A stretch of 64,000 bases of DNA from Bacteroidia bacterium (GCA_027493955.1 JAOSJT010000001.1:2219131-2283130); one strand, 5' to 3'; positions 1 to 44,428 are shown, counted from the stretch's first letter. The notes: a model not told the origin generated them from the sequence alone. Numbers and translations are program-made.

Positions 1-209
1 ACACCGAGGTATTGACCCGGCATCAAGGTCGCGCGCCAGGTATTCCACGCGGTGCATTGCGTTGTCGGAGTCTGACCATTGACGAACTGCATGGAGAACT
101 TGTGGTTCTGCGCGATCGCCGTAGCCCCTGCGAGGAGGAGCAAAGCGATGATGAGAAGCCCTCTCGATCGCAGTTCTGGAATGAATGATCGTGGTATCAT
201 TGCGTTCAT
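1..209 (-). CDS. N-terminus of a T9SS-exported array protein, cut by window edge (array member 0)
   Basis: Only the first 69 codons are present; the gene runs off the left edge. Translated from ATG at 209 it gives a signal peptide (hydrophobic run LLIIALLLLAGATAIA, then QN) followed by NHKFSMQFVNGQTPTTQC and AWNTWRATLMPGQYLGV. This is clearly homologous to the Cys-rich N-terminal module of the next gene (start 4476), so it is a sister copy. GGAGG lies four bases before ATG 209; the inner ATG at 200 is spaced too far. The leader motif GTCATCCAC (minus sense) is at 226-234. What lies beyond the signal and module is inferred from its neighbours. Confidence 0.85.
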   Translation of the reverse strand, partial: MNAMIPRSFIPELRSRGLLIIALLLLAGATAIAQNHKFSMQFVNGQTPTTQCTAWNTWRATLMPGQYLG

Positions 210-225
210 TGAACCTCCAGGTAAA

Positions 226-234
226 GTGGATGAC
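226..234 (-). promoter_or_regulatory. Conserved leader motif GTCATCCAC
   Basis: Read on the minus strand, the bases upstream of this start are GTCATCCAC. The same (T)CATCCAC or a close variant lies 17-36 bases before the start of nearly every array gene: 4493-4500, 16167-16174, 20025-20032, 31859-31868, 35710-35719, 39401-39408 and 41431-41438, with weaker forms at 8154, 12204, 23885, 27735 and 44447. It may mark the start of the transcript or act in the 5' leader; which of these is not decided by the sequence. Confidence 0.5.
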
Positions 235-1250
235 AGTATTGCGGGATAAATATTTTCAAATCCATAGGCGGCTTTCACTGAACCCCGACATAATGGGTGC
301 TGCATGTTTGAATATTAGATCAACATACTTCCACCACAGTCGGACCTCGAAGAGAACAGTCGTCGTGTCATTGGGAATCTAGCCCTTTCCCGGAACGAAA
401 GCAACAGATTCGTGATTTTTTTTCACGATTCTCCCGTAGTGAATATTCGTAGTAGCATTTTTACCTACATATCGCCTGTTTCGGTCAGATTTTAATTGCT
501 TTGGAGCTCTACCATTTCATCCCGGTCTCGGAGTTTCTCACAGCCGGCATATCTATTCACAATGTCGCAAGTTAGTGCCGTTTATGCACAGCAGAGCTCG
601 CCAAGATCAGTGCAGCCCATTTCCGGGTGACGGCAAGAAATTGCTTCGACACGGGAATAGAACGCAATGCAGAACATTTGACTGATCGAAGCTATTCGGT
701 CGCGTCTTCATTCACCCGAACCGGGGCTCCCGTCGCGCTGCGGCGGGTACTCCTTGCCGGCTATCCTTCCATCAGGCGATAGAGAGGATTTCAATCATAC
801 ATGTTTGTTTTTTTTGCACACACTCCTTCAACATCGGTTTGCAGGCGACATCCTTTCTTAGCTCCCGACCTCGTCCCTGATATCTGACCCTGTGCTGAGA
901 TGCTGATTCCCATCGGTTGATGTGATTTCTTTCTGCGGTTTGGGTGCTCCGATGCCGAAATCAGGGCGAAGATGCCTCCTTCACGAACGATAGTGATCGT
1001 GAAAATGGCCATTGTTGCGCCTTCGCATCATTGCGTCTTCGAGTTGAATTCCCCTCTTACCTCAGAAGAACGGAACGTAATGTTTCAAAGTGACTATACA
1101 GATGCTGTTGTCGGTCCGCGATTCAATGAGCCTTTTTCTGCGATGAGGGAAGTGTGATTCCTGCAGTGTCTTGGGTGCTGCAATGACGAACTCAGGAAAC
1201 ACCTTCCACGTAGGCTTCTCGTCTGCCGCCTCCCTTGGCAGCCTTCCAAA
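235..1250. other. Intergenic region of about 1 kb
   Basis: No convincing gene is seen. Short open frames at 791-1012 (-) and 972-1157 (+) have neither family resemblance nor a good ribosome-binding site. The stretch holds the palindromic operator candidate at 412-426 and a half-like copy (GTGAATATTC) near 439. A GC hairpin at 729-747 (CCCGTCGC, 3-base loop, GCGGCGGG) has no T-tract. Confidence 0.5.
412..426. promoter_or_regulatory. Candidate operator, GTGA-N7-TCAC palindrome
   Basis: GTGATTTTTTTTCAC, flanked by C and G so that the arms extend to CGTGA/TCACG. It lies about 200 bases upstream of the array member starting at 209. The same 15-bp layout recurs upstream of other array genes. The arms resemble CRP-family half sites, but the spacer is 7 bases rather than 6. 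The regulator is unknown. Confidence 0.5.
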
Positions 1251-1251
1251 T

Positions 1252-1281: not shown

Positions 1282-1308
1282 GATAGTCGTTCCTCGTTGG
1301 AGGATGAA

Positions 1309-4300
1309 CTATTTGTTCAGCGTCATCTTGATGGTTTTCGAGAAGCTCAGACCGCTTTCGTTGCCCGTCATGTTCACGATGGCCATGTACTGGCCGCTCG
1401 GAAGATTCGTGGCGTCGAAGGTGTACTGATGTACACCGGCTTCCACGATGCCGTCCACCGCGGTTGCCACAACGCGGCCCAGCATATCCACCACGCGCAG
1501 ATGCACGCGGCTCGGCTCGGGCACGCTGTACTGCAGCGTCGTCGTCGGGTTGAACGGATTCGGGAAGTTCTGGCTCATGTCAAAGGTCGTCGGCATGAAG
1601 CCGGCATCGCTACGCGGAGCGACACCGCCATGCTGACGCATCCAGTTGAGCTTGATGGCGAGGTAGTCGAAGTTGTTCACGACACCATTGCCGTCGGCAT
1701 CCATATAGCAACCCTTGGCCGTGAACCACGGGGCGCTCGCCTGCGGCATCCACTGAATGTAGGTCAGAGGATTCTGCACAGCGTCGGCACGGTAACGGGC
1801 CGGACCGTTCAGCCACTGCGTGTTCAGATTCGCGTCATGGATGTACTCGTTGAGATCCTTGCGGTCCGTGTAATTCACCACGCCATCGTTGTTCACGTCG
1901 CCCGGCCACACTTCGCAAGGGGTGGCGCCGAGGGGCACGAGCAGCAGCGACGAGGGATACGGCATGTAGTTGCGATAGTAACCGCAGCTGTTCTTGGTGT
2001 TGAACACGAGTTCGACTTTGTAATAGCCCGAGGGCAGCGAGGCCGGCAGATTGAAATAGGACGTGCCGTTCAGGTTCTGATTGGCGAGCTTGTTCGCGCT
2101 GAAGGTCTCGCTGTACATGAGCTGATTGCCCGGTACGCTGTAGAAGTTCGCCGTCATCGTGATCGTCGCGTCAAAGGGCGGGAAAATCACGCTGTAGCGG
2201 ACGCCGATGGTGCCGGGAAGCTCGACAAAGCCGATGGGATTGCCCGAGCCGTCCACAAAGTCGTAGGTCAGGCTGTTGGCGATCAGATAACAGGCCTCGT
2301 CGGCGCCCATGTAGGGACGCACGCGGGGCTCTTTGTCAATGTCGTCGGTCACGGATGGAAGTAGTGTCCCGATCAGATTGTCGTCGTCATCCGAGGGCGC
2401 GACCAGATGCAGATTGCCGGTTGCGGGATCCGCAAAGCTCACGGGCACGGTAACGGAATGCTGGTCTTTCCCGGATGCCGCGCGCAGCGCCGGCAGATTT
2501 GCGTAGTTGCCGTTCCAATAGGCGAGGTTTGCGCCACTCGAGCGGATGTTGTTGTAATCCGACTCGACGACGTTCGTACCCGGAACCACATACCAGGCGT
2601 ATCCGGCTCCGCTGTGAAGCATGATGTTGTTCAGGTAGCGGCCGTTTGCACCGTAGTACGTGTACAGCGCATAACCGGAGGCGTACGTGCCGTCCATGAG
2701 GATGGAGTTATGCGCGAAGTACAGATCGTTGCAGTAGTACATGCGCGCTGCGGAGTACGCGTAGGTCGTGGCGTTGCGGCCCACGATCATGTTGTTGACG
2801 AAACGTGAATTGCCTGCCTGATAGTAGTTGTCGTAGTACAGATACACACCGTACTGATAGGCACCGCCCTCGGCGACGAACACGTTGCGCTCGACACGGG
2901 TGTTGAAGCCGTAATACGACATGAACACGTACTTATAGGTGTAGCCGTAGTCCTGAATGACGCGGTTGTCGAAAAATTTCAATTCGCCGACATAGTAGAA
3001 GTATGTCGGATAGTAATATTGACCCGTAAACGTACAACCTTCGACGCGGAAGTTGTTCATCGTCGAAGTGGTGCTCGAGCCGTACACGTACATACCAAAG
3101 CTGCCGTTTCGAATGCCGCAGCGCAGGAAGGTATTGTTCGGCTTCATTGCGCCTGACGGTGAGTACACCACTGCATTGTACGTTGAGGTGGAGGTACTCG
3201 GCAGACTCACGAGTTCACAGTTTTCGATGAGGTTGTTGGTGGACGTCCCGGACAGATCCACTACGGTGCTATAGGATGCGTTGGTCGCGTTCATGGTCAG
3301 ATTCTTGAACGTCACCCACGAACAGCCGTTAAGCTTCACCACGAAATTGTTGGTGGTGGATGATGCCGCATGCGTCAACGTCACATCTGCTTTGTTGCCG
3401 GATTCGGACTGGAAGGTTACGGTATTGACCGCTGATGTTCCGGAGATGCTGCCAAGTTCCACATTGGTCGGATAGCTTCCGTTACGAATGTTGAATACCA
3501 CGGGACCACAAACGCCATTGGCATTCAGATCCGTCACCGCGGCGGCAATCGTCGGGTAGCTCGGCGAGGCACCGCCAATGGTGAACGTCCCCGAAATCGC
3601 GGCTTTACGCGTGACGGTGACCGTGTCGTTCATGTTTACCGTATCGGCGACGTTATTCGGCATGCTCGACCACACCTTGAATGCATAGGGTACGCCACTG
3701 GCGAAGGCCTGTGTGCCGAGGGTGATCTGTGTCTCACGGGTCGTGGCGTTCAGGGTATCAAGCAGGCCGGTCCAGTTGTATGCCGGCTGCGGGACACCGT
3801 TCAGCGTCCAGTTGATGGTGGCGCTGGTGACGGGCAGCGTACCGAAGTTCTTGAGCGTCACTTTGATCGGATGCGTTCCGGCGCAGAAATCCTTCGGGGA
3901 ATCCAGCGAAGCGATACCGATGTCATTCGGCGCGGAAGGCCGGATGAAAATCAGTTCCATCACCTGGGTAGGATTACTCGTACATGTCGGGGTGTTTGCA
4001 CCGCCCCAGTTCAGATTACCGATACACACACGCATGATGTACGCGGGATCGGGGCAGTTCGAACCGCTGCACAGCGCGGGGGCGTCTATCCACAGCTCAC
4101 CGCCGTACCGATCGCAAAGGTACCAGATTCGTCCGTTACACAGGGGCGAAGTGTACTGGGCGCCATTCACACCGGTCATAATGGCGGCCGCGAGCGCGTT
4201 CGCCATCGCAGGATCGTTGCAGGTTACACCAACCTGGGCACCCGCATTGGCGCTGCCGCGGAAGGTGACACCGAGATACTGGCCGGGTGTCAGGGTCGCT

Positions 4301-4476
4301 CGCCAGGCGTTCCAGGCGTTGCATTGCGCCGTCGGCGTCTGGCCATTGGTGAACGTGGCGGAAAAGATGTGGTTCTGGGCCGTTGCCTCACCGGCACCAA
4401 AAATGAGAATGCATAACAGCACGATACCTTGAAGCAGATGCTTCACGGCGACGCCCCGTCGTGACAAGGGTTTCAT
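1309..4476 (-). CDS. T9SS-exported beta-helix protein with Cys-rich N-terminal module (array member 1)
   Basis: A 1,055-residue exported protein, probably displayed on or released from the cell surface; its ligand is unknown. Signal peptide to about residue 34 (ends ATAQ). Residues 35-190 are a Cys-rich module (WNAWRATLTPGQYLGV, LCNGRIWYLCDRYGG, RVCIGNLNWGG) shared only with the partial gene at the left edge. A CARDB-like sandwich starts at NDIGIASLDSPKDFC. The beta-helix runs from TFTIGGASPSYPTIAAAV (about 295) to the SDDDDNLIG linker near 700. A MGADEACY motif and a beta-sandwich follow. The dockerin-like loops DVNNDGVVNYTD and DADGNGVVNNFD begin near 857. The sorting domain begins with FDMSQNFPNPFNPTT near 965 and ends KMTLNK. 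AGGAGG sits four bases before the ATG. Its helix is of the same subtype as in members 2 and 3, but its N-terminal module differs. Confidence 0.93.
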   Translation of the reverse strand: MKPLSRRGVAVKHLLQGIVLLCILIFGAGEATAQNHIFSATFTNGQTPTAQCNAWNAWRATLTPGQYLGVTFRGSANAGAQVGVTCNDPAMANALAAAIMTGVNGAQYTSPLCNGRIWYLCDRYGGELWIDAPALCSGSNCPDPAYIMRVCIGNLNWGGANTPTCTSNPTQVMELIFIRPSAPNDIGIASLDSPKDFCAGTHPIKVTLKNFGTLPVTSATINWTLNGVPQPAYNWTGLLDTLNATTRETQITLGTQAFASGVPYAFKVWSSMPNNVADTVNMNDTVTVTRKAAISGTFTIGGASPSYPTIAAAVTDLNANGVCGPVVFNIRNGSYPTNVELGSISGTSAVNTVTFQSESGNKADVTLTHAASSTTNNFVVKLNGCSWVTFKNLTMNATNASYSTVVDLSGTSTNNLIENCELVSLPSTSTSTYNAVVYSPSGAMKPNNTFLRCGIRNGSFGMYVYGSSTTSTMNNFRVEGCTFTGQYYYPTYFYYVGELKFFDNRVIQDYGYTYKYVFMSYYGFNTRVERNVFVAEGGAYQYGVYLYYDNYYQAGNSRFVNNMIVGRNATTYAYSAARMYYCNDLYFAHNSILMDGTYASGYALYTYYGANGRYLNNIMLHSGAGYAWYVVPGTNVVESDYNNIRSSGANLAYWNGNYANLPALRAASGKDQHSVTVPVSFADPATGNLHLVAPSDDDDNLIGTLLPSVTDDIDKEPRVRPYMGADEACYLIANSLTYDFVDGSGNPIGFVELPGTIGVRYSVIFPPFDATITMTANFYSVPGNQLMYSETFSANKLANQNLNGTSYFNLPASLPSGYYKVELVFNTKNSCGYYRNYMPYPSSLLLVPLGATPCEVWPGDVNNDGVVNYTDRKDLNEYIHDANLNTQWLNGPARYRADAVQNPLTYIQWMPQASAPWFTAKGCYMDADGNGVVNNFDYLAIKLNWMRQHGGVAPRSDAGFMPTTFDMSQNFPNPFNPTTTLQYSVPEPSRVHLRVVDMLGRVVATAVDGIVEAGVHQYTFDATNLPSGQYMAIVNMTGNESGLSFSKTIKMTLNK

Positions 4477-4912: not shown

Positions 4913-7900
4913 TTACTTGTTCAGCGTCATCTTGATGGTTTTCGAGAAGCTCAGGCCGCTTTCGTTGCCCGTCATGTTCACGATGGCCATGTACTGACCG
5001 CTCGGGAGATTCGTGGCGTCGAATGTGTACTGATGAATGCCGGTTTCCACGATGCCGTCAACCGCTGTCGCAACAACGCGGCCCAACATGTCCACCACGC
5101 GCAGATGCACGCGGCTCGGCTCGGGGACGCTGTACTGAATGGTCGTCGTCGGATTGAACGGATTCGGGAAGTTCTGGCTCATGTCGAAGGTCGTCGGGGC
5201 AAAGCCGGCATCGTTGCGCGGGGTGACGCCTCCGTGCTGCTTCATCCAGTTGAGCTTGATGGCGAGGTAGTCGAAATTGTTCACCACACCGTTGCCGTCC
5301 GCATCCATGTAGCAGCCCATGGCCGTGAACCACGGAGCGCTCGCCTGCGGCTGCCACTGAATGTAGGTCAGCGGATTCTGCACGGCGTCGGCGCGGTAGC
5401 GGGCCGGGCCGTTCAGCCACTGCGTGCTCAAATTGGCGTCATGGATGTACTCGTTCAGATCCTTGCGGTCCGTGTAGTTCACCACGCCGTCGTTGTTCAC
5501 GTCGCCCGGCCACACTTCGCAGGGCGTTGCGCCGAGGGGCACAAGCAGCAGCGAGGTGGGATACGGCATGTAGTTGCGGTAATAGCCGCAGCTGTTCTTG
5601 GTGTTGAACACCAGCTCGATTTTGTAATACCCTGTCGGCAGGTTCGCCGGCAGATTGAAGTACGACGTGCCATCCAGCGGCTGGCCGGCCAGCTTGTTCG
5701 CGCTGAAGGTCTCGCTGTACACGAGCTGATTGCCCGGCACGCTGTAGAAATTCGCCGTCATCGTGATCGTCGCGTCGAAGTCCGGGAAAATCACGCGGTA
5801 ATGGACGCCCACGGTTCCGGGAAGTTCGATGTAACCGATCGGATTGCCGCTGCCGTCCACGAATTCGTAGTTCAGGCTGTTGGCGATCAGATAACAGGCC
5901 TCGTCGGCACCCATGTACGGACGCACGCGCGGTTCCTTGTCAATGTCGTCGGTCACCGACGGAAGCAGCATGCCGATCAGATCGTCATCGTCATCCGACG
6001 GCGCGACGAGATGCAGATTTCCTGTCGCGGGATCCGCAAAGCTCACGGGTTTGCTGACGGAGTTTCCATCCTTGCCCGAGGCCACCTGGAGAGCTGCGAG
6101 ATTCGCGCGGTTGCCGTTCCAGTATGCGAGATTGGCGCCATTGGACCGGATGTTGTTGTAGTCCGATTCAACGACATTCGTACCCGGAAGCACGTACCAG
6201 GCGTACCCCGCACCGGAGTGCTCGATGATGTTGTTCAGATAGCGGCTGTTCGCACCGTAGTAGGTGTACAACGCGTAACCGGAAGCGTAGGTCCCGGACA
6301 TTGTGATCGTGTTGTGCGCGAAATACAGGTCGTTGCAGTAGTACATGCGCGCCGCGGAGTACGCGTAGGTCGTGGCGTTGCGGCCCACGATCATGTTGTT
6401 GACGAAACGGGAATTCCCCGCCTGATAATAGTTGTCATAGTATAGATACACGCCGTACTGATATGCACCGCCGTCCGCGACGAACACGTTACGCTCCACC
6501 TGCGTGTTGAAACCGTAGTACGACATGAATACGTACTTATAGATGTAGCCGTAGTTCTGGATGACGCGGTTGTCGAAGAATTTAAGCTCGCCGACATAAT
6601 AGAAATACGTCGGATAATAATACTGACCGGTGAATTCGCAGCCCTCGACGCGGAAGTTGTTCATGGTCGAGGTGGTATTCGAACCAAACACGTACATACC
6701 AAAACTGCCGTTGCGTATGCCGCAGCGCAGGAAGGTGTTGTCGGGTTTACTGGCTCCGGACGGTGAATACACGACGGCATTGTACGTCGAGGTGGAGGTG
6801 CTCGGCAGACTGACGAGTTCGCAATTTTCGACGAGGTTGTTGGTGGAAGTACCCGACAAGTCCACCACCGTGCTGTACGAAACGTTCGTCGCGGTCATGG
6901 TGAGATTCCTGAACGTAATCCACGAGGCACCGTTGAACTTGACGACGAAGTTGTTCGTGGTCGACGTCGCCGCATGCGTCAAGGTCACATCGCCCTTATT
7001 GCCCGATTCGGACTGGAAGGTCACGGTGTTGACGGCGGACGTACCGGAGATGGCGCCGAGCTCCACATTTGTGGGATAGCTGCCGTTACGGATATTGAAT
7101 ACCACAGGACCACAGACGCCATTCGCATTCAAATCTGCCACCGCCGCTGCGATGGTCGGATAATCCGGTGATGCGCCGCCGATCGTATAGGTGCCGGAGA
7201 TAGCCGCCTTGACGTTGACTATGGCGGTGTCGTTCTTGTTGATCGTGTCGGCAACACCGTTCGGCATCGTTGTCCAGACAGTGATGTTGTACGGGACGCC
7301 TGAAGCGAACGTCCTGTTGCCAAGGGTGACCTGGGTTTGGCGTGTGGTCAGGTTGAGCGTATCGAGCAAGCCGGTCCAGTTCACCGTGGGTTGCGCGACG
7401 CTGTTCAGCGTCCAGTTGATTGTCGCACTGGTGAGCTGATTCGTGCCATAGTTGCGCAAGGTCACTTTGACGTCGTGTGCACCGGCGCAGAAATCTTTGG
7501 GGGAGTCGATGGATTCTATGCCGGCGTCGTTCGGCCCTGTGACCGTCGTCGTATAGTACATTTCGGTTCTGGCGATCGAACCGCTGACTTCCTGAGATAC
7601 CGCCGCAACGGGATAGCTGCCAGCCTGATACACCATACGGGTCAGCGTCACAGGGAATCCAAGGATACTGGAGTTGTACGGACCCGCCGGTGTCGCATAG
7701 GAGTTGTTCATGTTGGCACCGTTCGTTCGCGTGCCGAAAATCGCGATGTAATCACCGGCTTTGATATCGATGTTGCAGGGAATCATCGTGGTGGTGTTCA
7801 CATTTGTCCACAAACCAAGAGTGGTGTGCGCGGATGTCGAAGCCGCGTACACGGGCGGTGGACCCGCCGCGAAGCGGATGATCTGCACATTCTGCGGTGT

Positions 7901-8125
7901 CGTGCCAATATCTGTGGGTACGCGCACGCCCACGATCGTGAAGTCCGTCGGTGCCTGGAACCAGTATCCACGGATTTGATTGGCAGTATACGTGGAGCCG
8001 TATCCTGGCAATGGCATCATTGTCTGGGCCTGCGCCGAAAAAACCATGCAGAACAGCATGATCGGCAGAAGCACCGCGACGGCACGTCCGAGACTGCGTT
8101 TCGGGAAAAGCTTGTCGGGTATCAT
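4913..8125 (-). CDS. T9SS-exported beta-helix protein, N-terminal module type II (array member 2)
   Basis: A 1,070-residue exported protein. Signal peptide ends near residue 34 (FSAQAQ). Residues 35-198 form a predicted beta-sandwich module (RGYWFQAPTDFTIVGVRVP, CNIDIKAGDYIAIFGTR) found otherwise only in the next gene. A CARDB-like domain starts at NDAGIESIDSPKDFC, the beta-helix at about 308, dockerin-like loops near 871 and the sorting domain near 978. The helix contains an exceptionally Tyr-rich stretch (encoded at about 6230-6630) with 30 Tyr in 133 residues. AAGGAG lies about ten bases before ATG 8125; a weak leader motif (CTCCAC) is at 8154. Near-duplicate of the gene starting at 12171, with similarity extending into the 3' hairpin. 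Function beyond export is not predictable. Confidence 0.93.
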   Translation of the reverse strand: MIPDKLFPKRSLGRAVAVLLPIMLFCMVFSAQAQTMMPLPGYGSTYTANQIRGYWFQAPTDFTIVGVRVPTDIGTTPQNVQIIRFAAGPPPVYAASTSAHTTLGLWTNVNTTTMIPCNIDIKAGDYIAIFGTRTNGANMNNSYATPAGPYNSSILGFPVTLTRMVYQAGSYPVAAVSQEVSGSIARTEMYYTTTVTGPNDAGIESIDSPKDFCAGAHDVKVTLRNYGTNQLTSATINWTLNSVAQPTVNWTGLLDTLNLTTRQTQVTLGNRTFASGVPYNITVWTTMPNGVADTINKNDTAIVNVKAAISGTYTIGGASPDYPTIAAAVADLNANGVCGPVVFNIRNGSYPTNVELGAISGTSAVNTVTFQSESGNKGDVTLTHAATSTTNNFVVKFNGASWITFRNLTMTATNVSYSTVVDLSGTSTNNLVENCELVSLPSTSTSTYNAVVYSPSGASKPDNTFLRCGIRNGSFGMYVFGSNTTSTMNNFRVEGCEFTGQYYYPTYFYYVGELKFFDNRVIQNYGYIYKYVFMSYYGFNTQVERNVFVADGGAYQYGVYLYYDNYYQAGNSRFVNNMIVGRNATTYAYSAARMYYCNDLYFAHNTITMSGTYASGYALYTYYGANSRYLNNIIEHSGAGYAWYVLPGTNVVESDYNNIRSNGANLAYWNGNRANLAALQVASGKDGNSVSKPVSFADPATGNLHLVAPSDDDDDLIGMLLPSVTDDIDKEPRVRPYMGADEACYLIANSLNYEFVDGSGNPIGYIELPGTVGVHYRVIFPDFDATITMTANFYSVPGNQLVYSETFSANKLAGQPLDGTSYFNLPANLPTGYYKIELVFNTKNSCGYYRNYMPYPTSLLLVPLGATPCEVWPGDVNNDGVVNYTDRKDLNEYIHDANLSTQWLNGPARYRADAVQNPLTYIQWQPQASAPWFTAMGCYMDADGNGVVNNFDYLAIKLNWMKQHGGVTPRNDAGFAPTTFDMSQNFPNPFNPTTTIQYSVPEPSRVHLRVVDMLGRVVATAVDGIVETGIHQYTFDATNLPSGQYMAIVNMTGNESGLSFSKTIKMTLNK

Positions 8126-8958: not shown

Positions 8959-11900
8959 TTACTTGTTCAGCGTCATCTTGATGGTTTTCGAGAAGCTCAG
9001 GCCGCTTTCGTTGCCCGTCATGTTCACGATGGCCATGTACTGGCCACTCGGGAGATTCGTGGCGTCGAACGTGTACTGATGAATGCCTGTTTCCACGATG
9101 CCGTCCACCGCTGTCGCAACGACGCGGCCCAGCATGTCGACCACGCGCAAATGCACGCGGCTCGGCTCGGGCACGCTGTACTGAATGGTCGTCGTCGGAT
9201 TGAACGGATTCGGGAAGTTCTGGCTCATGTCGAAGGTCGTCGGCGTGAAGCCGTCACCGTTGCGCGGAGCCACACCACCATGCTGGCGCATCCAGTTGAG
9301 CTTGATCGCGATGTAGTCGAAGTTGTTCACCACACCGTTGCCGTCCGCATCCATGTAGCAGCCCATGGCCGTGAACCACGGAGCGCTGGCCTGCGGCTGC
9401 CATTGAATATAGGTCAATGGATTCTGCACGGCATCAGCCCTGAAGCGGGCGGGTCCGTTCAGCCACTGCGTGCTCAAATTGGCGTCATGGATGTACTCGT
9501 TCAGATCCTTGCGGTCCGTGTAGTTCACCACGCCGTCGTTGTTCACGTCGCCCGGCCACACTTCGCAGGGCGTTGCGCCAAGGGGCACAAGCAGCAACGA
9601 AGTGGGATACGGCATGTAGTTGCGGTAATAGCCGCAGCTGTTTTTTGTGTTGAACACCAGCTCGATTTTGTAATACCCTGTCGGCAGGTTCGCCGGCAGA
9701 TTGAAGTATGAGGTGCCGTCCAGCAGCTGACCGGCCAGCTTGTTCGCGCTGAAGGTCTCGCTGTACATGAGCTGATTGCCCGGCACGCTGTAGAAATTCG
9801 CCGTCATCGTGATGGTCGCGTCGAAGTCCGGGAAAATCACGCGGTAATGGACGCCCACGGTTCCGGGAAGTTCGATGTAACCGATCGGATTGCCGCTGCC
9901 GTCCACGAATTCGTAGTTCAGGCTGTTGGCGATCAGATAACAGGCCTCGTCGGCACCCATATACGGACGCACGCGCGGCTCCTTGTCAATGTCGTCGGTC
10001 ACCGTCGGAAGCAATGTACCGATCAGATCGTCGTCGTCGTCCGACGGCGCGATCAGGTGCAGATTTCCTGTTGCGGGATCCGCGAAGCTCACGGGCTTGC
10101 TGACGGAATTCGCATCCATCGCGGACGCCGCCTGGAGAGCTGCGAGATTCGCGCGGTTACCGTTCCAGTATGCGAGATTGGCACCAGAGGAAAGGATATT
10201 ATTGTAGTCCGATTCGACAACGTTCGTCCCGGGCGTCACATACCACGCGTAGCCGGCGCCTGAATGCAATACGATGTTGTTCAGATACCGTCCATTCGCG
10301 CCGTAGTAGGTGTACAGTGCGTACCCGGATGCGTAGGTCCCATCCATGATGATGGAATTGTGCGCAAAATAGAGGTCGTTGCAGTAGTACATGCGCGCAG
10401 CGGAATACGCGTAGGTCGTGGCGTTGCGGCCCACGATCATGTTGTTGACGAAACGGGAATTGCCCGCCTGATAGTAGTTGTCGTAGTAGAGATACACGCC
10501 GTACTGGTATGCACCACCATCCGCGACGAACACGTTGCGCTCAACACGCGTGTTGAAGCCGTAGTACGACATGAACACGTACTTGTAGGTGTAGCCGTAG
10601 TCCTGGATTACGCGGTTGTCGAAGAATTTCAATTCACCGACATAGTAGAAATACGTCGGATAGTAATACTGACCGGTGAATTCGCAGCCCTCGACGCGGA
10701 AGTTGTTCATTGTGGACGTTGTGCCGGAGCCGTAAATGTACATGCCGAAGCTGCCGTTGCGGATGCCGCAACGGAGGAAGGTATTGTTGGGCTTACCGGC
10801 GCCGGACGGTGAATTCACGACGGCATTGTACGTCGAGGTGGAAGTGCTCGGGAGACTGACGAGTTCGCAGTTCTCCACGAGGTTGTCGGTGGAGGTCCCG
10901 GCCAGTTCCACCACCGTGCTGTACGAAACGTTCGTCGCGGTCATGGTGAGATTCCTGAACGTGACCCACGAAGCACCGTTGAACTTGACAACGAAGTTGT
11001 TCGTGGTCGAGGTCGCCGCATGCGTCAGCGTTACATCTGCTTTGTTGCCGGATTCGGACTGGAAGGTCACGGTGTTGACGGCGGACGTGCCGGAGATGGC
11101 ACCGAGCTCCACATTGGTGGGATAGCTGCCGTTGCGGATATTGAATACCACAGGACCACAGACGCCATTCGCATTCAGATCGGTCACCGCCGCTGCGATG
11201 CTCGGATAATCCGGAGAAGCGCCGCCGATAGTATACGTTCCCGAAATGGCCGCTTTCACGTTCACGACCGCCGAATCATTTTTGTTGATCGTATCGGCAA
11301 CACCATTCGGCATGGTTGTCCAGACGGCGATATTGTACGGCACGCCGGAAGCGAAGGAACGGTTGCCGAGCGTAACCTGTGTCTGACGGGTGGTCAGATT
11401 GAGCGTATCGAGCAACCCTGTCCAGTTCACCGCAGGCTGCGCAACGCTGTTCAGTGTCCAGTTGATTGTCGCGCTGGTGAGCTGATTCGTACCATAGTTG
11501 CGGAGAGTCACCTTCACATCATGGGTACCGGCGCAGAAATCTTTCGGAGAATCGATGGAGACGATCCCCGCATCGTTGGGGCCGGTAACCGTCGTCGTGT
11601 AATACATTTCCGTGCGGGCAATCTGGCCGCTGACTTCCTGCGAGACATCTGTCACGGGGAAGGAGCCGGCCTGATACACCATGCGTGTCAGTGTAACGGG
11701 ATAGCCGAGGATACTCGAATTGAACGGTCCCGCCGGTGTGGCGTAGGAGTTGTTCATGTTGGTACCGTTGTTGCGCGTACCAAAAATCGCGATGTAGTCA
11801 CCCGACTTGATGTCGATGTTACAAGGGATGATGGTCGTGGTATTGACATTGGTCCACAGTCCCAAAGTCGTATGGGCGTTCGTGGATGTGGCGTATACCG

Positions 11901-16717: not shown

Positions 16718-16746
16718 GCGTGATGCAATATTGATGCTGCTGAAGC

Positions 16747-35400: not shown

Positions 35401-35690
35401 TTGACGTATCCGTTCGGCCGGGCCCAGATGTCCACGAGTGTGGTGCCCGTCCCCGCGAAGGTATTCTGAAAACGGTAGAGTCGCACGGCCTGATGCGCTG
35501 TGATGTCGAAGGAAATAAAGGAATTCGACGAGGTTGACGTTGTCGAGGTGGGTTGCGTCGAGAGCATGTACGCTCCCTGTGCGCTGACATCGGTCTGCAG
35601 TGGACCGATCTGTAACAACATGATCAGTGCGAACAGTGTGAGAGCTCCGGATACACGTAAGCTTGCACACGGTTTGGTACACAGTGTCAT
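32451..35690 (-). CDS. T9SS-exported beta-helix protein with unique N-terminal module V (array member 9)
   Basis: 1,079 residues from ATG 35690 (MTLCTKPCASLRVSG); CGGAGG lies four bases upstream and the leader motif is at 35710-35719. The frame extends to 35735 without signal features. The N-terminal module (about 40-208) occurs once in the window: FISFDITAHQAVRLYRF, HLGRANVTVTSTTTYTEIP, ISCGNHC, FNFSLCPRQIAGAVRYDEG. The CARDB-like domain (DDAGISALESPKDFCAGT, TGLLDTLNATTRKT) resembles that of members 1-3. The second half of the helix (MYGFNTQMERNTFLSDGG, SPYTSGRALYSYYG) resembles members 4-8, so the protein looks like a mosaic. The early helix rungs (VQFTSVTGNPTLYFNGISW) are its own. Dockerin-like loops near 882, sorting domain near 990. 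Confidence 0.92.
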   Translation of the reverse strand: MTLCTKPCASLRVSGALTLFALIMLLQIGPLQTDVSAQGAYMLSTQPTSTTSTSSNSFISFDITAHQAVRLYRFQNTFAGTGTTLVDIWARPNGYVNQNNGWIHLGRANVTVTSTTTYTEIPINLDFLIQANETWGFIISHHTISVKYNSTVTPATYTDGRITISCGNHCAGTGTGDPVTQVTSFNFSLCPRQIAGAVRYDEGATAPNDAGISALESPKDFCAGTHDIKATLQNFGINQITSATINWKLNGVPQTPVSWTGLLDTLNATTRKTTVTLGSQNFTSGIPYTFELWTSNPNGVPDTSNVNDTLRVTRKAAMSGTFTIGGASPDYSTIAAAIADLHANGVCGPVVYNIRSGTYTEQMAFGNVGSISGTSSVNTITFQSESGNKNDVTVQFTSVTGNPTLYFNGISWVTMKNMTIRALNVSYGVVVYLTGGSQNITIENCELIGPVTTTISTNTAVVWSTSGSLDHNFTVKNTGVRNGSYGMYIYGSSTTSTMNNLRVEDCEFTGQYYFPMYCYYVGEVKFIGNKVVQNSAYATKYLGYFMYGFNTQMERNTFLSDGGTGAYGIYIYYDNYYQAGTSRIVNNMVTVRNVATGYYGINHYYCNDTYFAHNTIILESPYTSGRALYSYYGANNRYLNNIILNTGAGYAWYVLPGTNVVESNYNNWFSSGTNLAYWNADRANLAALQAASGMDGASVSKPVSVADVFVGDLHLVAPSDDDDDLIGALLPSVTEDIDKEPRVRPYMGADEACYLIPNSLTYDFVDGSGNPIGFVELPGTVGVRYRVIFPPFDATITMTANFYSVPGNQLVFSETFSANKLANQDLNGTSYFNLPASLPSGYYKIELVFNTKNSCGYYRNYMPYPSSLLLVPLGATPCEVWPGDVNNDGVVNYTDRKDLNEYIHDANLSTQWLNGPARYRADAVQNPLTYIQWMPQASAPWFTAMGCYMDADGNGVVNNFDYIAIKLNWMKQHGGVTPRSDNGFTPTTFDMSQNFPNPFNPTTVLQYSVPEPSRVHLRVVDMLGRVVATAVDGIVEAGVHQYTFDAVNLPSGQYLAIVNMTGNESGLSFSKTVKMTLNK

Positions 35691-36156: not shown

Positions 36157-39100
36157 TTACTTGTTCAGCGTCATCTTAACGGTCTTCGAGAAGCTCAGGC
36201 CGCTTTCGTTGCCCGTCATGTTCACGATGGCCAGGTACTGACCGCTCGGAAGATTCACGGCGTCGAAGGTGTACTGATGCACGCCGGCTTCCACGATACC
36301 GTCAACGGCCGTCGCCACAACGCGGCCCAGCATGTCCACCACGCGCAGATGCACGCGGCTCGGCTCGGGGACGCTGTACTGCAGCACCGTCGTCGGATTG
36401 AACGGATTCGGGAAGTTCTGGCTCATGTCGAAGGTCGTCGGTGCGAAGCTGTCGCCCAGGCGCGGAGCCACGCCGCCGTGCTGGCGCATCCAGTTGAGCT
36501 TGATGGCGAGGTAGTCGAAGTTGTTCACCACGCCGTTACCGTCGGCATCCATGTAGCAGCCCATCGCCGTAAACCACGGAGCGCTCGCCTGCGGCATCCA
36601 CTGAATGTAGGTCAGCGGATTCTGCACCGCGTCGGCGCGGTAACGGGCGGGACCGTTGAGCCACTGCGTGCTCAGGTTCGCGTCATGGATGTACTCGTTG
36701 AGATCCTTGCGGTCCGTGTAGTTGACCACGCCGTCGTTGTTCACGTCGCCCGGCCACACTTCGCACGGCGTCGCGCCATTGGGCACGAGCAGCAGCGACG
36801 AGGGATACGGCATGTAGTTGCGGTAGTAGCCGCAGCTGTTCTTCGTGTTGAACACCAGCTCGATCTTATAGTAACCCGAGGGCAGCGAGGCCGGCAGATT
36901 GAAGTACGACGTGCCGTTCAGATCCTGATTGGCCAGCTTGTTCGCGCTGAACGTCTCGCTGTACATGAGCTGATTGCCCGGCACGCTGTAGAAATTCGCC
37001 GTCATCGTGATCGTCGCGTCGAACGGCGGGAAAATCACGCGGTAGCGCACGCCGATCGTTCCGGGAAGTTCGACGTACCCGATCGGATTGCCTGAGCCGT
37101 CCACGAAGTCGTAGGTCAGGCTGTTGGCGATCAAATAGCAGGCCTCGTCGGCGCCCATGTACGGACGCACGCGCGGTTCGAGATCGATGTCGTCTGTCAC
37201 CTGCGGCAGAAGCACGCCGATCAGATCGTCATCGTCGTCGGAGGGAGCGACCAGATGCAGATTCCCGGACATCACATCGGCAAAGCTCACAGGCTTGCTG
37301 ACCGATTGCGCATCCTGTCCGGAGGCGGCCTGAAGCGCTGCCAGATTCGCGCGCGCCGCGCCCCAGTACGCCAGATTCGCTCCGGCGCTATACCAGTTGT
37401 TGTCATTTGATGCGGTAACGTTGGTACCGGGCGCCACGTACCAGGCGTAGCCGGCGCCGGTGTGCATGACGATGTTGTTGCGGTACGTGTTGTTGGCGCC
37501 GTAGTACGAGTACAGCGCGTAACCGCTCGCGTACCCGCTCTCGACGCGGATAGTGTTATGCGCGAACAGGCTGCCGTTGCTGTAATAGTGATTGATGCCG
37601 TAATAGGCGTTGGTCACATTGCGCACGGATATCATGTTGTTGACGATGCGCGACATGCCCGCCTGATAGTAGTTGTCGTAGTAAATATACAGACCGTACG
37701 CGGTCGAGCCACCGTCGCTCACGAAGGTATTGCGCTCGATTTGCGTATTGAAGCCGTACATCAGGTAGCCGAGATACTTCGTGGCGTAGGCGGAATTCTG
37801 GACGATCTTGTTGCCGATGAGCTTGAGTTCGCCGAGATAATAGAAATACAGCGGGAAGTAGTACATGCCCGTGATCTCGCAGTTCTCGACGCGGAGATTG
37901 TTCATCGTCGAAGTCGTGCTCGAGCCGTAGAGGTACATACTGTAGGCGCCGTTGCGGATATTGCAGCCGCGGAAGGTCATGTTATGCGCGAGGGTGCCCG
38001 TGTTGGAACGAACCACGGCGTTGTTCGTCGAGGTGGAGGTCGCCGGAAGACTGTTCAGATCACAGCCCTCCACCGTACAGTCGTTCGAGCTGCCGGTCAC
38101 TTCCACGACGGTGCTGTAGGACACGTTGGTGGCGTTCAGCGTCATGTTCTTGAACGTCACGAATTTCGCACCACCGAAGCGGAGGACGTAATTGTCCGTC
38201 GTCGACGTCGCGGCGTAATTGATAATCACATCCGCGCGGTTACCGGTTTCGGATTGGAACGTGACCGTATTCACCGCCGAGGTTCCGGCAATATTGGCAA
38301 GATCAATTTTCGTTGTGTACGTGCCGCTTCGGACGTTGAACACCACGGGACCGCAGATACCGTTAGCGGTAAGATCCGCAACCGCGGCGGCGAAGGTGGC
38401 GTAGTTCGGCGACGCGCCGCCGATGGTATACGTTCCGCTGATCGCTGCTTTCAGGTTTGCGCGCAGCGTGTCGTTCTGCGGGAAGCTGTCCGCCACATTA
38501 TTCGGCTGAGAGGTCCACACGGCGAGAGGATAGCTGATACCGGATGCGAAAGTCCGCGAACCGAGAGTCAGATCGACCTCCGTCGTGGAGGGGATGGGCG
38601 TGTTGTACGCGATCGGTGTTTGCGGCACGCCGTCGAAACTCCAGTTCACGGTCACGTTGTTGACGGTGTTCGTGCCGTAGTTGCGGAGCTTCACCTTGAT
38701 GTCATAGGTCCCGGTACAGAAGTTGATCGGCGAGACCAGTGCCGAGATTCCCGCATCGTCGGGAAGCGCCGGATTCATGTTGAAACCGAAATCGTACCAG
38801 TTACCGTCGGTGCTGCTTCCGGGATTCGTCGTGCATGTAGATGCCCAGATGCGCCGAAAAGGCGGGGTCGTCATACTGGATGTGCGTAACTGAATACCTC
38901 CCCCGGAATAGCCCTCATGACAGACCTGCACGACCAGGGATTGGTTCGGATTGTAATAAAATGGTGTTTGGAGCTGAACAGAGAACCAGTCACCCGCATT
39001 ACCCGCAGGGATGGCTGTGCTCGCCGCGCTATACACCAGCGTCACCGGAGTATAGAACGTCGTCGTGGACGGGAAGGCGTTGGCAGGATTCTGACCGAGC

Positions 39101-39378
39101 CAGATCTTCAGGTTCGTGTATGTCGTCAACGTGCTGGCGGTATTCCGTTTCCAGAACACGGTGACGATATTCCCCGCATAGGCACCGGAGAACTCATTAT
39201 TCATGTAGTTCTGCTGGACCTTCATGGTCGAGGTTGAACCGAAAGGGAAAACATTGTTGCTGTTTCCCGTGCTCGCATTTGAGTACTGAGGCGTTTGTGC
39301 TGCGACAATGAGCGGCAACAAAAAAAGCCCTCCGAGCACAAGTAACCAGCGGGGGGCGTTCATGGAACGTATGGTCAT
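36157..39378 (-). CDS. T9SS-exported beta-helix protein, N-terminal module type IV (array member 10)
   Basis: 1,073 residues from ATG 39378 (MTIRSMNAPRWLLVLGG); GGAGG four bases upstream and the leader motif at 39401-39408 select this start over the open frame reaching 39516. Signal peptide ends near 28 (LIVAAQ). Type IV module QTPQYSNASTGNSNNVFPFG, related to that of member 8. From base 38282 to its stop it is almost identical to array member 5, whose module is type III; the match ends abruptly inside the first beta-helix rungs (after FQSETGNR in reading order, the codons before it differ). CARDB-like domain from about 208, helix from 316, dockerin-like loops near 876, sorting domain near 983. 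The 290 bases upstream hold no other gene. Confidence 0.93.
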   Translation of the reverse strand: MTIRSMNAPRWLLVLGGLFLLPLIVAAQTPQYSNASTGNSNNVFPFGSTSTMKVQQNYMNNEFSGAYAGNIVTVFWKRNTASTLTTYTNLKIWLGQNPANAFPSTTTFYTPVTLVYSAASTAIPAGNAGDWFSVQLQTPFYYNPNQSLVVQVCHEGYSGGGIQLRTSSMTTPPFRRIWASTCTTNPGSSTDGNWYDFGFNMNPALPDDAGISALVSPINFCTGTYDIKVKLRNYGTNTVNNVTVNWSFDGVPQTPIAYNTPIPSTTEVDLTLGSRTFASGISYPLAVWTSQPNNVADSFPQNDTLRANLKAAISGTYTIGGASPNYATFAAAVADLTANGICGPVVFNVRSGTYTTKIDLANIAGTSAVNTVTFQSETGNRADVIINYAATSTTDNYVLRFGGAKFVTFKNMTLNATNVSYSTVVEVTGSSNDCTVEGCDLNSLPATSTSTNNAVVRSNTGTLAHNMTFRGCNIRNGAYSMYLYGSSTTSTMNNLRVENCEITGMYYFPLYFYYLGELKLIGNKIVQNSAYATKYLGYLMYGFNTQIERNTFVSDGGSTAYGLYIYYDNYYQAGMSRIVNNMISVRNVTNAYYGINHYYSNGSLFAHNTIRVESGYASGYALYSYYGANNTYRNNIVMHTGAGYAWYVAPGTNVTASNDNNWYSAGANLAYWGAARANLAALQAASGQDAQSVSKPVSFADVMSGNLHLVAPSDDDDDLIGVLLPQVTDDIDLEPRVRPYMGADEACYLIANSLTYDFVDGSGNPIGYVELPGTIGVRYRVIFPPFDATITMTANFYSVPGNQLMYSETFSANKLANQDLNGTSYFNLPASLPSGYYKIELVFNTKNSCGYYRNYMPYPSSLLLVPNGATPCEVWPGDVNNDGVVNYTDRKDLNEYIHDANLSTQWLNGPARYRADAVQNPLTYIQWMPQASAPWFTAMGCYMDADGNGVVNNFDYLAIKLNWMRQHGGVAPRLGDSFAPTTFDMSQNFPNPFNPTTVLQYSVPEPSRVHLRVVDMLGRVVATAVDGIVEAGVHQYTFDAVNLPSGQYLAIVNMTGNESGLSFSKTVKMTLNK

Positions 39379-39749: not shown

Positions 39750-41411
39750 TTACCTGGCCAGCGTCATCCTGATGGTTTTCGAGAACGTGAGACCGCTCTC
39801 GAGACCACGCATAGCCACGGTGGCGAAGTACTGGCCGCCGGGCAATTCCGCAGAATCAAAGATCGCAGTGGACACCCCTTCCTCGATACAACCGTCAACG
39901 AGCGTTGCGACGGTGCGTCCGAGCATATCCGTTACCCGGAGCTTTACAAGACTGCGCTCCGGTACGCTGTATCGAACAGAGGTACCGGGATTGAAGGGAT
40001 TCGGGAAATTTTGTTCCATATCGAAGGTGGCCGCGGCGAGTCGCTGAGCAGGCTTCGCGGGAGTCATGCCGTGTGCGCGCAACCAATTCATCTTGACGCC
40101 GATGTAATCGAAGTTGTTGATAACACCGTTTCCGTCGGCATCCATATAGCATCCCTCGGTGGTATACCAGGGAACGGAAGGTTGTCCTTCCCAACGAAGA
40201 TACACAAGCGGATCCGTCTGGCCTTCGATTTTGTATCGCGCCGGACCATGGAGCCACAGCGTCCGCAGGTTGGCGTCAAAGATGTATTTGTTCAGCGCGC
40301 CGCGATCCCCGTAGTTCACCACACCATCGTTGTTCACGTCACCGGGCCAGACCTCGCAGAGCTGCGTCCCGGGCGCGATAAACAGTGTGGAGGTTTCGGT
40401 CTTGACATCCTCGTACATGAGACAGTTGTTCCACATCGAGAAGGTTGCCTCGACGCGGTAGTAGGATGGAGGAAGGTTGAGATTCATGCCGCGCACGCCG
40501 TCGAGCACACCCAGCGGTTTGTGCACGACGAAGGTTTCCGTATGCGCGGGCTGCGCGCCGGGATCGCCTATGCGGAAGAACTTCAATGTTATGGTAACGT
40601 CGTATTCCTGATCGAGTGGATACCGGATCGAGTAGCGCGCATACACCATACCCGGAGTGGTGTAATACCCCATCGGCGAACCGAGCGCGTCCGTCATGGC
40701 AATGGCCACCGAACCTTGCGGGACATAGCAACCAAAGCGATAGATATACCCGACGGGCGGCTTCACCGCGCCACCGTATTGCTTCGCAATGGTTCCGTCA
40801 GTTGAGGCACTTGTGCCTGTCCACTGCCCGATTCTGTTCTGCACGTCACCCGCGGTCGCGCTGCGGATACCGACATAGCCGGTGTTCGTTGTGGCTGCGG
40901 TGATCCAGTCACCATACACTAACTCGATCATATTGCTGGTCTCGTAGAATTTGACCTGGAAGTTCAGCTTGTCGAGTTGGTTGTAATACGTCATCCAATC
41001 CTTCCACTGAACCGTCATCACGCGATTGGGCATCGTCCCACTGACAGCCCAGGTAATCGTGCCCTGGTAATTGCCGTGTAAGTCGCGGCTGATCGGGCTC
41101 ACCACATCGTAATTGTTGTTGAGCGCCTGTCCGTAGATATACGGTTGCGAACTTCCGAAGGTGATGTACCCATTCGTGGTGACGTACATCACGGTATGCG
41201 GGTTGGCATTGTAGTAGAAGGTGAACGGGATGTTCACGGCGTAGCTCTCGTCGTCATGATAGCCGACGGGCGTGCAGATATCGGTACCGGTAATTTCCGT
41301 ATACGTGCCCTGCAGTTCGACAAACGGCTTTGTGGCGATGGTTTGAGCGCCGAGTCCCGCACTCATCGCGCCGATCAACAGCACGGTTAACAGCATGGTG
41401 CGCGAGTTCAT
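39750..41411 (-). CDS. Short T9SS-exported protein without beta-helix (array member 11)
   Basis: 553 residues from ATG 41411 (MNSRTMLLTVLLIG). GAGG lies about seven bases upstream and the leader motif TTCATCCAC is at 41431-41438, matching the spacing in the full-length genes; ATG 41423 lacks a Shine-Dalgarno. Signal peptide ends GLGAQ. In place of module plus helix it has a beta-rich domain (about 24-230) with IPFTFYYN, MYVTTNGYITFG, NRVMTVQWKDW and NFQVKFYE, a pattern common in T9SS-secreted Bacteroidota proteins. It then shares the family stalk: beta-sandwich, dockerin-like loops DVNNDGVVNYGD and DADGNGVINNFD near 355, sorting domain NFPNPFNPGTSVRYSVPERS near 462, ending MTLAR. Confidence 0.92.
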   Translation of the reverse strand: MNSRTMLLTVLLIGAMSAGLGAQTIATKPFVELQGTYTEITGTDICTPVGYHDDESYAVNIPFTFYYNANPHTVMYVTTNGYITFGSSQPYIYGQALNNNYDVVSPISRDLHGNYQGTITWAVSGTMPNRVMTVQWKDWMTYYNQLDKLNFQVKFYETSNMIELVYGDWITAATTNTGYVGIRSATAGDVQNRIGQWTGTSASTDGTIAKQYGGAVKPPVGYIYRFGCYVPQGSVAIAMTDALGSPMGYYTTPGMVYARYSIRYPLDQEYDVTITLKFFRIGDPGAQPAHTETFVVHKPLGVLDGVRGMNLNLPPSYYRVEATFSMWNNCLMYEDVKTETSTLFIAPGTQLCEVWPGDVNNDGVVNYGDRGALNKYIFDANLRTLWLHGPARYKIEGQTDPLVYLRWEGQPSVPWYTTEGCYMDADGNGVINNFDYIGVKMNWLRAHGMTPAKPAQRLAAATFDMEQNFPNPFNPGTSVRYSVPERSLVKLRVTDMLGRTVATLVDGCIEEGVSTAIFDSAELPGGQYFATVAMRGLESGLTFSKTIRMTLAR

Positions 41412-41438
41412 GATTTGCCTCATGGATTGGGTGGATGA

Positions 41439-41966: not shown

Positions 41967-41997
41967 AAAGCAGGCGCGGCTCAATGGCCGCGCCTGC
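41964..41997 (-). terminator. Rho-independent terminator of array member 12
   Basis: GCAGGCGCGGC-CATTGA-GCCGCGCCTGC then TTTTTTATG on the minus strand, 22 bases after the stop at 42020. Confidence 0.9.
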
Positions 41998-42019
41998 CGG
42001 AATAGAAAAATCGTCGTGC

Positions 42020-44428
42020 TTATTTGGAGAGCAGCATGCGTATGGTACGCGAGTAGCTCAGACCGCTGTCCTTGCCCGTCATGCTCACCGTCGCATTATA
42101 CTGCCCGGACGGCAGCGAACCGCCATCGAAGCTCAGCACATGCGCACCTGCTTCCATGCTTCCCTGCACCAGAGTTTCCACCTCGCGACCAAGCATGTCG
42201 GTTACGCGGAGGGTCACCTCGCTCCTCTCAGGAATGTTGAGGCGAATACTCGTTGCGGGATTGAAGGGATTGGGGTAGTTCTGGCTCATATCGAAGCCGG
42301 TGACAGCCACGCCATCGCTCTGCTTGGGATTGATCGCACCGTGCACGCGGGTCCAGTTGAGCTTGATAGCGAGGTAATCGAAGTTGTTCACAACGCCGTT
42401 GCCATCGGAATCCATGTAGCAGCCGAGCGGGGTGTACCACGGCGCGCCTGCCTGCGGCGTCCATGCGACGTATGCCATCGGATCGCTCACGGCTTCGGCG
42501 ACGTAACGTGCCGGCCCATTGAGCCACAGGGAGTTCATTCTGGAATCGTAGATGTACGTGTTGAGATCCTTGCGATCACCATAGTTCACGACACCATCGT
42601 TATTGACATCACCCGGCCACACGACGCAGGGATTGGTTCCGGGAGCCACAACGAGCACACCACGATCGGGGAAGGCCTTGCGGTCCACATACAGCGCGCA
42701 GGAATTCATCAGGTTGAAGAACACCTCGATGCGATAGTAACCGGGAGGCAGGTCCGCAGGTATGGAAACCGGATACAAACCATCTACCGCCTGGCCGTAG
42801 GGCTTATTAACCTGGAAGCTCTGCGTGGTGACGAGACTGTTATCGGTGACGCTGTAAAAACGCAGTGTGATAGTAATGGTGGCGGCATCGAGAGGATTGT
42901 TCACGTTGTAGCGCACAAACACCGTACCTGGTGCGACGATGTACGACGGGGGTAAACCGTTGCCGTCTTCCAGGCTGTAGCTGTACCATTCGGGTTTCGT
43001 ATAGCAGGCCTCGTCCGCGCCCCGGTACGGAACGGTACGCTGATCGCCGTCAATATCGTCTGTCACAGAAGCAAGAACGAGTCCGGTGAGATCCGTATCG
43101 TTCTGTGATGGACCGGCAAGGTGGAGATCGCCGATGGACTCATTGAGGAAGGTCGCATTCTTGAAAATGGAGTTCGCGTCCATAAGACTTGCGGCGCGGA
43201 GGGCGTTGATATCGGGCATTGCGACCGCATTCCAGTAAATTGCGGTACCCGGGTTCGGCCCCCAATACACATTGTAGTCTTGCGCAAAGATCGGTGCGGT
43301 GGTGGTTACGCCCTGCGTATAGTAGGACTGGCCGTTGCCATGGTTGATGATAATGTTGTTCAGCAGCTCGAGTCCCTCCTGTCGCGGAATGACGATGTAG
43401 GCCCCACGGCTGCTCGCGGCGGTGCCGGTACAGACAAAGGTGTTGTTGTAGATCAGCTTTCCGCCGGAAGTGGAGATATAGAACGCGTAGGAAGTCGACC
43501 CCCCGCCATTGACGGTGACGAAATTGTTGCGGATGAAGCCGCGGGGCATGATGCTGGAATTCCAGAACTGAATACCGCGTTTGGCGCCGGAGCCGCCCAT
43601 GAGCGCGATTTTGTTTTTCTCGATCAGGAAGCCGACGTACAGGGTGTTGAGGTACAAACCATACTGCGTCACCGTGCTGGTGGTGGAGAGGTTGATGGTG
43701 TTACCCCGCATGGTGGGATTATCCACATTCCACAAGTAGATGCCGGCTTCACCCTGGTTCTGCATGATGTTGTTTTCCGCGATCATGCCGCCATAGCGGG
43801 TGGTGCCTGTACCATAGAGCTGAATGCCCTTGGCGCCATTGATGAAGGTGTTGCCGCGGAAAGTGTTATTCGTGTGATTGGCTGCAACCTGATAGCAGTG
43901 CACCAGGCTGTGCTCGAGCGATGTGGAAGCGACGTTGATTCCTTCAATAACACAACCCTCGACCGTATTATTGGTCGAGGCGTTCGTCGTTCCGAAACGG
44001 ATGACGATCCCATAGGTGGTGTTTGTGGCGCGAAGAGTCATGTTTTTCAGCGTCACATAGTCTGCACCATCGAAGCGGATGGTGAAGTTATTCGCGCTGG
44101 TCGTTGACGAGAAGGCGACGATAACACTCGCGGCCTGACCATTTTCCGCCTGAAACGTAATGGTATTCGCCGCGGAGGCACCTGTTACGGCGGGCAGGGT
44201 GAATTGCTCCGGATAGGTTCCGGGACGAACATTGAACACCACGGGGCCCGACACGCCGGCCGAAAGCGCGGCGGCGGCAGCGGTAAAGGTGGCGTAATTC
44301 GGCGAGGACCCGCCGATGGTGTATGTACCGGACAGCTGCGATACCGCCGAAGGAGGCACGGCTATCAGCAGCATTGCGAATACAGTCACACCCAGAACAG
44401 TGACGAAACGCGGTTTGTGATGTATCAT
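42020..44428 (-). CDS. T9SS-exported beta-helix protein lacking N-terminal module (array member 12)
   Basis: 802 residues from ATG 44428 (MIHHKPRFVTVLG); AGGAG six bases upstream. The signal peptide ends near 31 (SAVSQ) and leads straight into the helix at LSGTYTIGGSSPNYATFTAA, so variable module and CARDB-like domain are both absent. The helix (NNTVEGCVIEG, NNTFRGNTFINGAKGIQLYG) lacks the extreme tyrosine content of the longer proteins. Linker GPSQNDTDLTG replaces SDDDDD; YRGADEACY is kept. Dockerin-like loops DVNNDGVVNYGD and DSDGNGVVNNFD near 603; sorting domain NYPNPFNPATSIRLNIPERS near 711, ending MLLSK. A diverged leader element (CATCTAC) is at 44447. It is the most compact architecture in the array. 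Confidence 0.92.
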   Translation of the reverse strand: MIHHKPRFVTVLGVTVFAMLLIAVPPSAVSQLSGTYTIGGSSPNYATFTAAAAALSAGVSGPVVFNVRPGTYPEQFTLPAVTGASAANTITFQAENGQAASVIVAFSSTTSANNFTIRFDGADYVTLKNMTLRATNTTYGIVIRFGTTNASTNNTVEGCVIEGINVASTSLEHSLVHCYQVAANHTNNTFRGNTFINGAKGIQLYGTGTTRYGGMIAENNIMQNQGEAGIYLWNVDNPTMRGNTINLSTTSTVTQYGLYLNTLYVGFLIEKNKIALMGGSGAKRGIQFWNSSIMPRGFIRNNFVTVNGGGSTSYAFYISTSGGKLIYNNTFVCTGTAASSRGAYIVIPRQEGLELLNNIIINHGNGQSYYTQGVTTTAPIFAQDYNVYWGPNPGTAIYWNAVAMPDINALRAASLMDANSIFKNATFLNESIGDLHLAGPSQNDTDLTGLVLASVTDDIDGDQRTVPYRGADEACYTKPEWYSYSLEDGNGLPPSYIVAPGTVFVRYNVNNPLDAATITITLRFYSVTDNSLVTTQSFQVNKPYGQAVDGLYPVSIPADLPPGYYRIEVFFNLMNSCALYVDRKAFPDRGVLVVAPGTNPCVVWPGDVNNDGVVNYGDRKDLNTYIYDSRMNSLWLNGPARYVAEAVSDPMAYVAWTPQAGAPWYTPLGCYMDSDGNGVVNNFDYLAIKLNWTRVHGAINPKQSDGVAVTGFDMSQNYPNPFNPATSIRLNIPERSEVTLRVTDMLGREVETLVQGSMEAGAHVLSFDGGSLPSGQYNATVSMTGKDSGLSYSRTIRMLLSK

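Follow-up and report, generated by a model that had tools for sequence, protein, structure and literature searches.

The locus considered here raises the question of how proteins that share their export and anchoring parts come to carry different N-terminal heads, and whether those heads are still being changed. It lies in a window of 64,000 nucleotides, the whole stretch of DNA first annotated, from the genome of a Bacteroidia bacterium (GCA_027493955.1, JAOSJT010000001.1:2219131-2283130). This genome (G000) is a single contig of 5.24 Mb with at least 150 sorting-domain matches. A first-pass annotation had described thirteen genes for proteins exported by the type IX secretion system (T9SS), and had compared them with cassette systems in which the exposed head is varied.

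The twelve complete genes and the partial one that had been placed at positions 1-44428 are borne out by the open reading frames, all of them on the minus strand (Table 1). The array is real and its genes share one strand, but it is larger than thirteen genes: in the stretches adjoining the window on the left, the rest of m0 is followed by mA (head V) and mB (head I), which makes 15 same-strand genes, and a solo copy, s1, is found at 1.41 Mb, 0.8 Mb off. Long open frames of up to 867 aa (e.g. window 20723-23326, plus strand) run antisense to the array genes and are probably a by-product of codon usage. The right flank is occupied by housekeeping genes.

Table 1. Features of the array and its surroundings. 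Positions are counted in the window unless stated otherwise.
Feature	Position	Strand	Description
m0	1..209	-	Only the 5' end: signal peptide and start of head I/D (head 1-107)
m1	1309..4476	-	Head I/D (3931-4374), linker, helix, post, dockerin-like part, CTD
m2	4913..8125	-	Head II/C (7535-8023), full stalk; 3' part near-identical to m0
m3	8959..12171	-	Head II/C (11581-12069), full stalk
m4	12888..16148	-	Head III/A (15495-16043); AlphaFold model, pLDDT 86
m5	16747..20007	-	Head III/A (19354-19902); start codon picked by leader and signal peptide
m6	20603..23863	-	Head III/A (23210-23758)
m7	24455..27715	-	Head III/A (27062-27610)
m8	28596..31823	-	Head IV/A (31203-31730); stalk protein ~95% identical to that of m7
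m9	32451..35690	-	Head V/B (35073-35576)
m10	36157..39378	-	Head IV/A (38764-39294), stalk of m5
m11	39750..41423	-	Head F (40734-41342) directly on post, dockerin-like part and CTD, without helix
m12	42020..44428	-	Helix, post, dockerin-like part and CTD, without head
Converted tract of m5	16747..18813	-	Final 2067 nt, ~identical to m10 36157-38223; 962-nt exact run
Same tract in m10	36157..38223	-	Different head above
Homogenised final 996 nt	24455..25450	-	Post, dockerin-like part and CTD, m7 as example; common to m1-m10
Hairpin	16685..16746	-	Right after m5 stop codon, not shared with m10, which has a hairpin of its own
TCATCCAC sites	226, 4493, 16167, 20025, 31859, 35710, 39401, 41431 and others	-	
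Cohesin-like matches	Genome (G000) 4433500, 2902104, 4387427, 3599315, 4349871, 4015832, 4146748		
AIR-synthase-like gene	45439-46428		Right flank
NADH/molybdopterin oxidoreductase-like operon	49513-56026		Right flank
Methylpurine-DNA glycosylase	56419-57018		Right flank
SIS-CBS protein	60649-61620		Right flank
Homocysteine methyltransferase-MTHFR fusion	61553-63463		Right flank

Home-made domain profiles recovered one order of modules, namely head, linker, helix, post, dockerin-like part and C-terminal sorting domain (CTD), in mB, mA, m0-m10 and s1. The conserved helix, dockerin-like part and sorting domain of the first-pass annotation were found again, together with the linker and post, as common parts of m1-m10. 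The only member above the Pfam cut-off for Beta_helix is m12 (42 bits against 25.9); the helix of the others has weak DUF4957/NosD matches and appears, from the profile comparison (2e-110), to be homologous to that of m12. Por_Secre_tail (PF18962/TIGR04183) is above its Pfam cut-off in m1, m2 and s1; it can still be recognised at lower scores in m4, m8, m9 and m12, and also in m11, where the score is far under the cut-off. Signal peptides were seen by inspection at the N-termini, and SprA, of the T9SS translocon, is encoded in the genome (1050 bits, cut-off 200). Judged by signal peptide, Por_Secre_tail and SprA, the array proteins would be T9SS type A substrates, and they are probably located on the cell surface.

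The heads were grouped by BLAST clustering of 49 members from ten genomes, which gave five groups: A (types III and IV), B (V), C (II), D (I) and E, a further type borne by s1. The memberships proposed earlier, I (m0, m1), II (m2, m3), III (m4-m7), IV (m8, m10) and V (m9), were confirmed. These types had been called unrelated or distant, and they do hold as types, but III and IV fall into one BLAST cluster and are remotely homologous, with 37-41% identity; between head types, no homology was detected by hhalign in five profile pairs (A/B, A/C, B/C, A/D and D/E). Two members had been said to lack these heads: m12 is without any head, and m11 bears a different one of ~200 residues (F), which was found again in L050 and L051. 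Heads scanned alone gave no Pfam family, with one sub-threshold match for head B, and among PDB sequences the head profiles had no significant match; the head of s1 has a weak DUF7402/F5_F8 match in Pfam. A Pfam scan of the linker gave no assignment either, and the name CARDB, considered for it, was dropped for lack of Pfam support.

The relationships among members change along the gene. In the head, the linker and most of the helix, identity at four-fold sites is around the chance value between members (0.38, as expected from codon usage), and in head and linker this is so even inside one type (0.34 in m4-m7). In the final 996 nt it is mostly 0.5-1.0 in all pairs without mA, s1 included. At the protein level, members with different heads share ~12-24% identity in the head (III vs IV, 37-41%), and mostly 85-100% in the post and dockerin modules and 91-100% in the CTD, that of mA excepted. 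The C-terminal likeness exceeds what selection alone would give, because synonymous four-fold sites have been homogenised too. The earlier observation that the same stalk is found under different heads (m7/m8 and m5/m10) holds in protein and in DNA, and m0/m2 is a third such pair: the 3' DNA is near-identical in m7/m8 and in m0/m2, the latter with a 788-nt exact run, while the heads are different. The array is thus a mosaic whose 3' part was recently homogenised, and the process behind it, as judged from one assembly per species, would be RecA-type conversion. As for mA (L001:12972-16472), its sorting domain is 62-67% identical to the others and its post and dockerin modules 85-96%; it may have escaped conversion at the sorting domain or acquired another tail.

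Every full-length array gene comes with a signal peptide, a leader and a terminator-like hairpin of its own, and no silent cassettes devoid of expression signals were seen among the full-length members. Same-stalk pairs do not share their flanks: downstream flanks and hairpins showed no sharing in m5/m10 and m0/m2 and a short weak match in m7/m8, and among the upstream flanks compared the only long match was m4/m5, with 29 nt in m8/m10 and none otherwise. Non-shared flanks favour overwriting of the 3' part in place over duplication with head replacement. Related to the leaders, TCATCCAC was counted 15 times where 3.0 would be expected, most copies lying 15-45 nt ahead of array start codons, and in relatives similar A/C-rich, G-poor leaders precede AGGAG-like sites.

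The head types recur in related genera, where they are borne by the stalks of those genomes. Heads A, B and C are present in 9/12, 10/12 and 10/12 genomes of the family, respectively, and head E in 6/16 genomes of the order; head D was found in this genome only. Among the 149 genomes of the class searched, head B is confined to the order (11 genomes) and head A reaches other families (31 genomes). When pairs from the same genome with different heads are set against pairs from different genomes with the same head, identity is 54% vs 64% in the linker, 63% vs 54% in the N-terminal helix, 68% vs 49% in the C-terminal helix and 88% vs 60% in the C-terminal part. Trees, on which AU tests were run leaving out three long-branch rows, agree with this gradient. 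For the linker, where the groups were chosen after being noticed, genome clades were rejected (G0 6e-6, G5 4e-8, G6 0.003), and of the head clades A and E were recovered, B was mildly rejected (p 0.036) and C was neither supported nor rejected. For the C-terminal part, the head clades A, B, C and E were rejected (B, C and E again chosen after being noticed), G0 and G5 group and G6 was not rejected. Since the linkers of heads B and C do not form clean clades, linkers have not in every case moved with their heads. From 5' to 3' the genes thus pass from type-specific to genome-specific. Tree-like divergence along the full length, which the first-pass annotation had listed among what would refute its reading, is not found: head and stalk have different histories. 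One genome per species was compared, and the contigs of most relatives break inside the arrays.

The heads are old and under purifying selection, and not hypervariable: heads of the same type within this genome have dN of 0.09-0.28 and dS from 1.4 to saturation, with dN/dS of roughly 0.05-0.15.

Several explanations could be given to these data. Plain duplication and divergence, in which the C-terminal part is under stronger purifying selection and no conversion takes place, fits the conservation expected of export signals, but four-fold sites homogenised in a pair-specific mosaic, and C-terminal trees that follow the genome and reject head-type clades, make it very improbable. An identical stalk under different heads would also result if whole genes had recently been duplicated and their heads then replaced through 5' conversion. 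This is nevertheless quite unlikely, as upstream and downstream flanks of the members are unrelated and the array holds no recent donor, the nearest to the head of m10 being that of m8 (66%, saturated dS). Active antigenic or phase variation, with heads now shuffled by recombination within the population, could call on the chimeric genes (5/10, 7/8, 0/2) and on direct-orientation repeats, which are good recombination substrates. We regard it as unlikely: the heads have saturated synonymous divergence, are under strong purifying selection and are common to several genera, there are no silent or promoterless cassettes and every gene comes with a separate leader and hairpin, and Pfam scans of selected right-flank ORFs (44.6-63.5 kb) gave no recombinase.

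The explanation that we consider probable is concerted evolution of the export and anchor end beneath an ancient and purified set of heads, by in-place 3' conversion. The array would consist of tandem type IX-exported modular proteins, with signal peptide, exchangeable head, linker, parallel beta-helix, post, dockerin-like part and sorting domain. Unrelated head families would have arisen, or been acquired, before the genera of the bacterial family split, and would be kept by purifying selection, probably because the tips have different binding targets. The near-identical 3' parts would let homologous recombination repeatedly convert stalk and tail in place, each conversion tract stopping in the helix or linker as the copies become less alike. 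In this manner export and anchoring would stay uniform while the heads persist and, on a longer scale, heads would have moved between three carriers.

Those carriers are seen directly. Besides the array stalk, the same head families are found on a carrier of ~1500 residues (L048, L049, L057, L054) and on one of ~500-600 residues without helix (L047, L050-L053). The genome of the window has the long carrier at 2.60-2.62 and 2.765 Mb, where it bears heads A, B and C; the two loci (L048 and L049, 2.604-2.622 and 2.758-2.770 Mb) have a tail different from that of the array, and one long-carrier frame (L048:8256-11510) has no tail match. Another T9SS array in this genome, unrelated to the first and with at least three genes (L004/L006, 2.555-2.567 Mb), has the same pattern of dissimilar N-termini and near-identical C-termini: n1 and n2 are 15-30% alike in their N-terminal parts and 98-100% identical over the final ~400 columns. 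A broader reading for this bacterial family, a plug-and-play T9SS display in which portable and mostly undescribed head families are recombined onto at least three carriers, in-place 3' conversion holds the export end uniform across the genome and heads are still exchanged between loci in populations, seems rather doubtful to us.

With respect to function, the heads are probably ligand-binding tips, each with a different target. The fold predicted for head A (m4, ten-sequence alignment) is all beta, with pLDDT 86. Against a viral library its best match was an uncultured phage protein (E 3e-7, TM 0.70), with many minor tail proteins; against PDB folds nothing had E below 1e-3, and the best, weak matches were a polyvinyl-alcohol esterase, a mycobacteriophage tail tip and CBMs of carbohydrate esterases. 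The model of head C was too poor (pLDDT 68) and its matches were discounted. Head A, as modelled, would resemble phage tail-protein and carbohydrate-binding beta-sandwich domains, which suits a binding tip but is no proof of it. On the other hand, the proteins could be secreted to capture polymers or plug into a scaffold and not be adhesins, with heads acting as CBMs and the dockerin-like part docking cohesin-bearing proteins. Dockerin_1 is above its cut-off (22.9) in most members tested, at a marginal 24-27 bits and with the match limited to the profile's first half, and under it in m12 (20.9 bits); seven cohesin-like matches in long frames exceed the Pfam cut-off in the genome, also marginally (22-29 bits). 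The fold likeness of head A to esterase CBMs and to a polymer-binding esterase domain, and the weakly F5/8-type C-like head of s1, point the same way. All of these scores are marginal, though, the genome has only one strong Dockerin_1 match and head A is closer to phage tail proteins, so that polymer capture is a tentative possibility. At least one of the frames with a cohesin-like match has a sorting-domain match too (4389212).

In cassette antigenic variation of the vlsE, pilE or tprK type, many related genes have constant parts in common and differ in one part. The array is like these systems in having related genes with constant parts and one differing part, but it has no silent donors, and here the variable part is ancient and purified and the constant part recently converted. 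The earlier idea of a repertoire with varied head and constant anchor stands as far as one export and anchor scaffold, several heads and separate histories of head and stalk are concerned. The likeness to cassette systems with a changing exposed head, however, found no support, the heads being old and present in other genera and the stalk recently overwritten; fast antigenic switching is not supported. A closer parallel is found in Helicobacter pylori, where babA/babB and homA/homB have 5' and middle parts like the counterpart of another strain and a 3' part like the paralogue of the same genome; in babA/babB the 3' part is in concerted evolution and binding specificity resides in the variable part (PMC3960876). 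The array shows both sides of the babA/babB pattern, its 5' part sorting by type across genomes and its 3' part by genome. Unlike babA/babB, it comprises 16 copies and several head families that are unrelated to one another, with predicted type IX export and a putative beta-helix stalk; it was compared between genera and babA/babB between strains. In Porphyromonas gingivalis, gingipain and haemagglutinin proteins are T9SS-exported, with common CTDs and adhesin domains that differ by recombination (PMC5266723); that variation is allelic, between strains and at few loci, whereas the array is tandem, with conserved heads and homogenised stalks. No earlier report of such an array was found in the open-access literature.

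The array is a large and clean natural case of one protein under two evolutionary regimes, with the export and anchor end homogenised per genome and the head end common across genera. It also carries a warning, as contig breaks and apparent orthology mislead at such loci, where C-terminal similarity tells the genome and not the function. Several head families and a linker, all without Pfam assignment, are now defined, whose ligands are directly screenable, and the data suggest that T9SS proteins can exchange head and CTD independently of each other.
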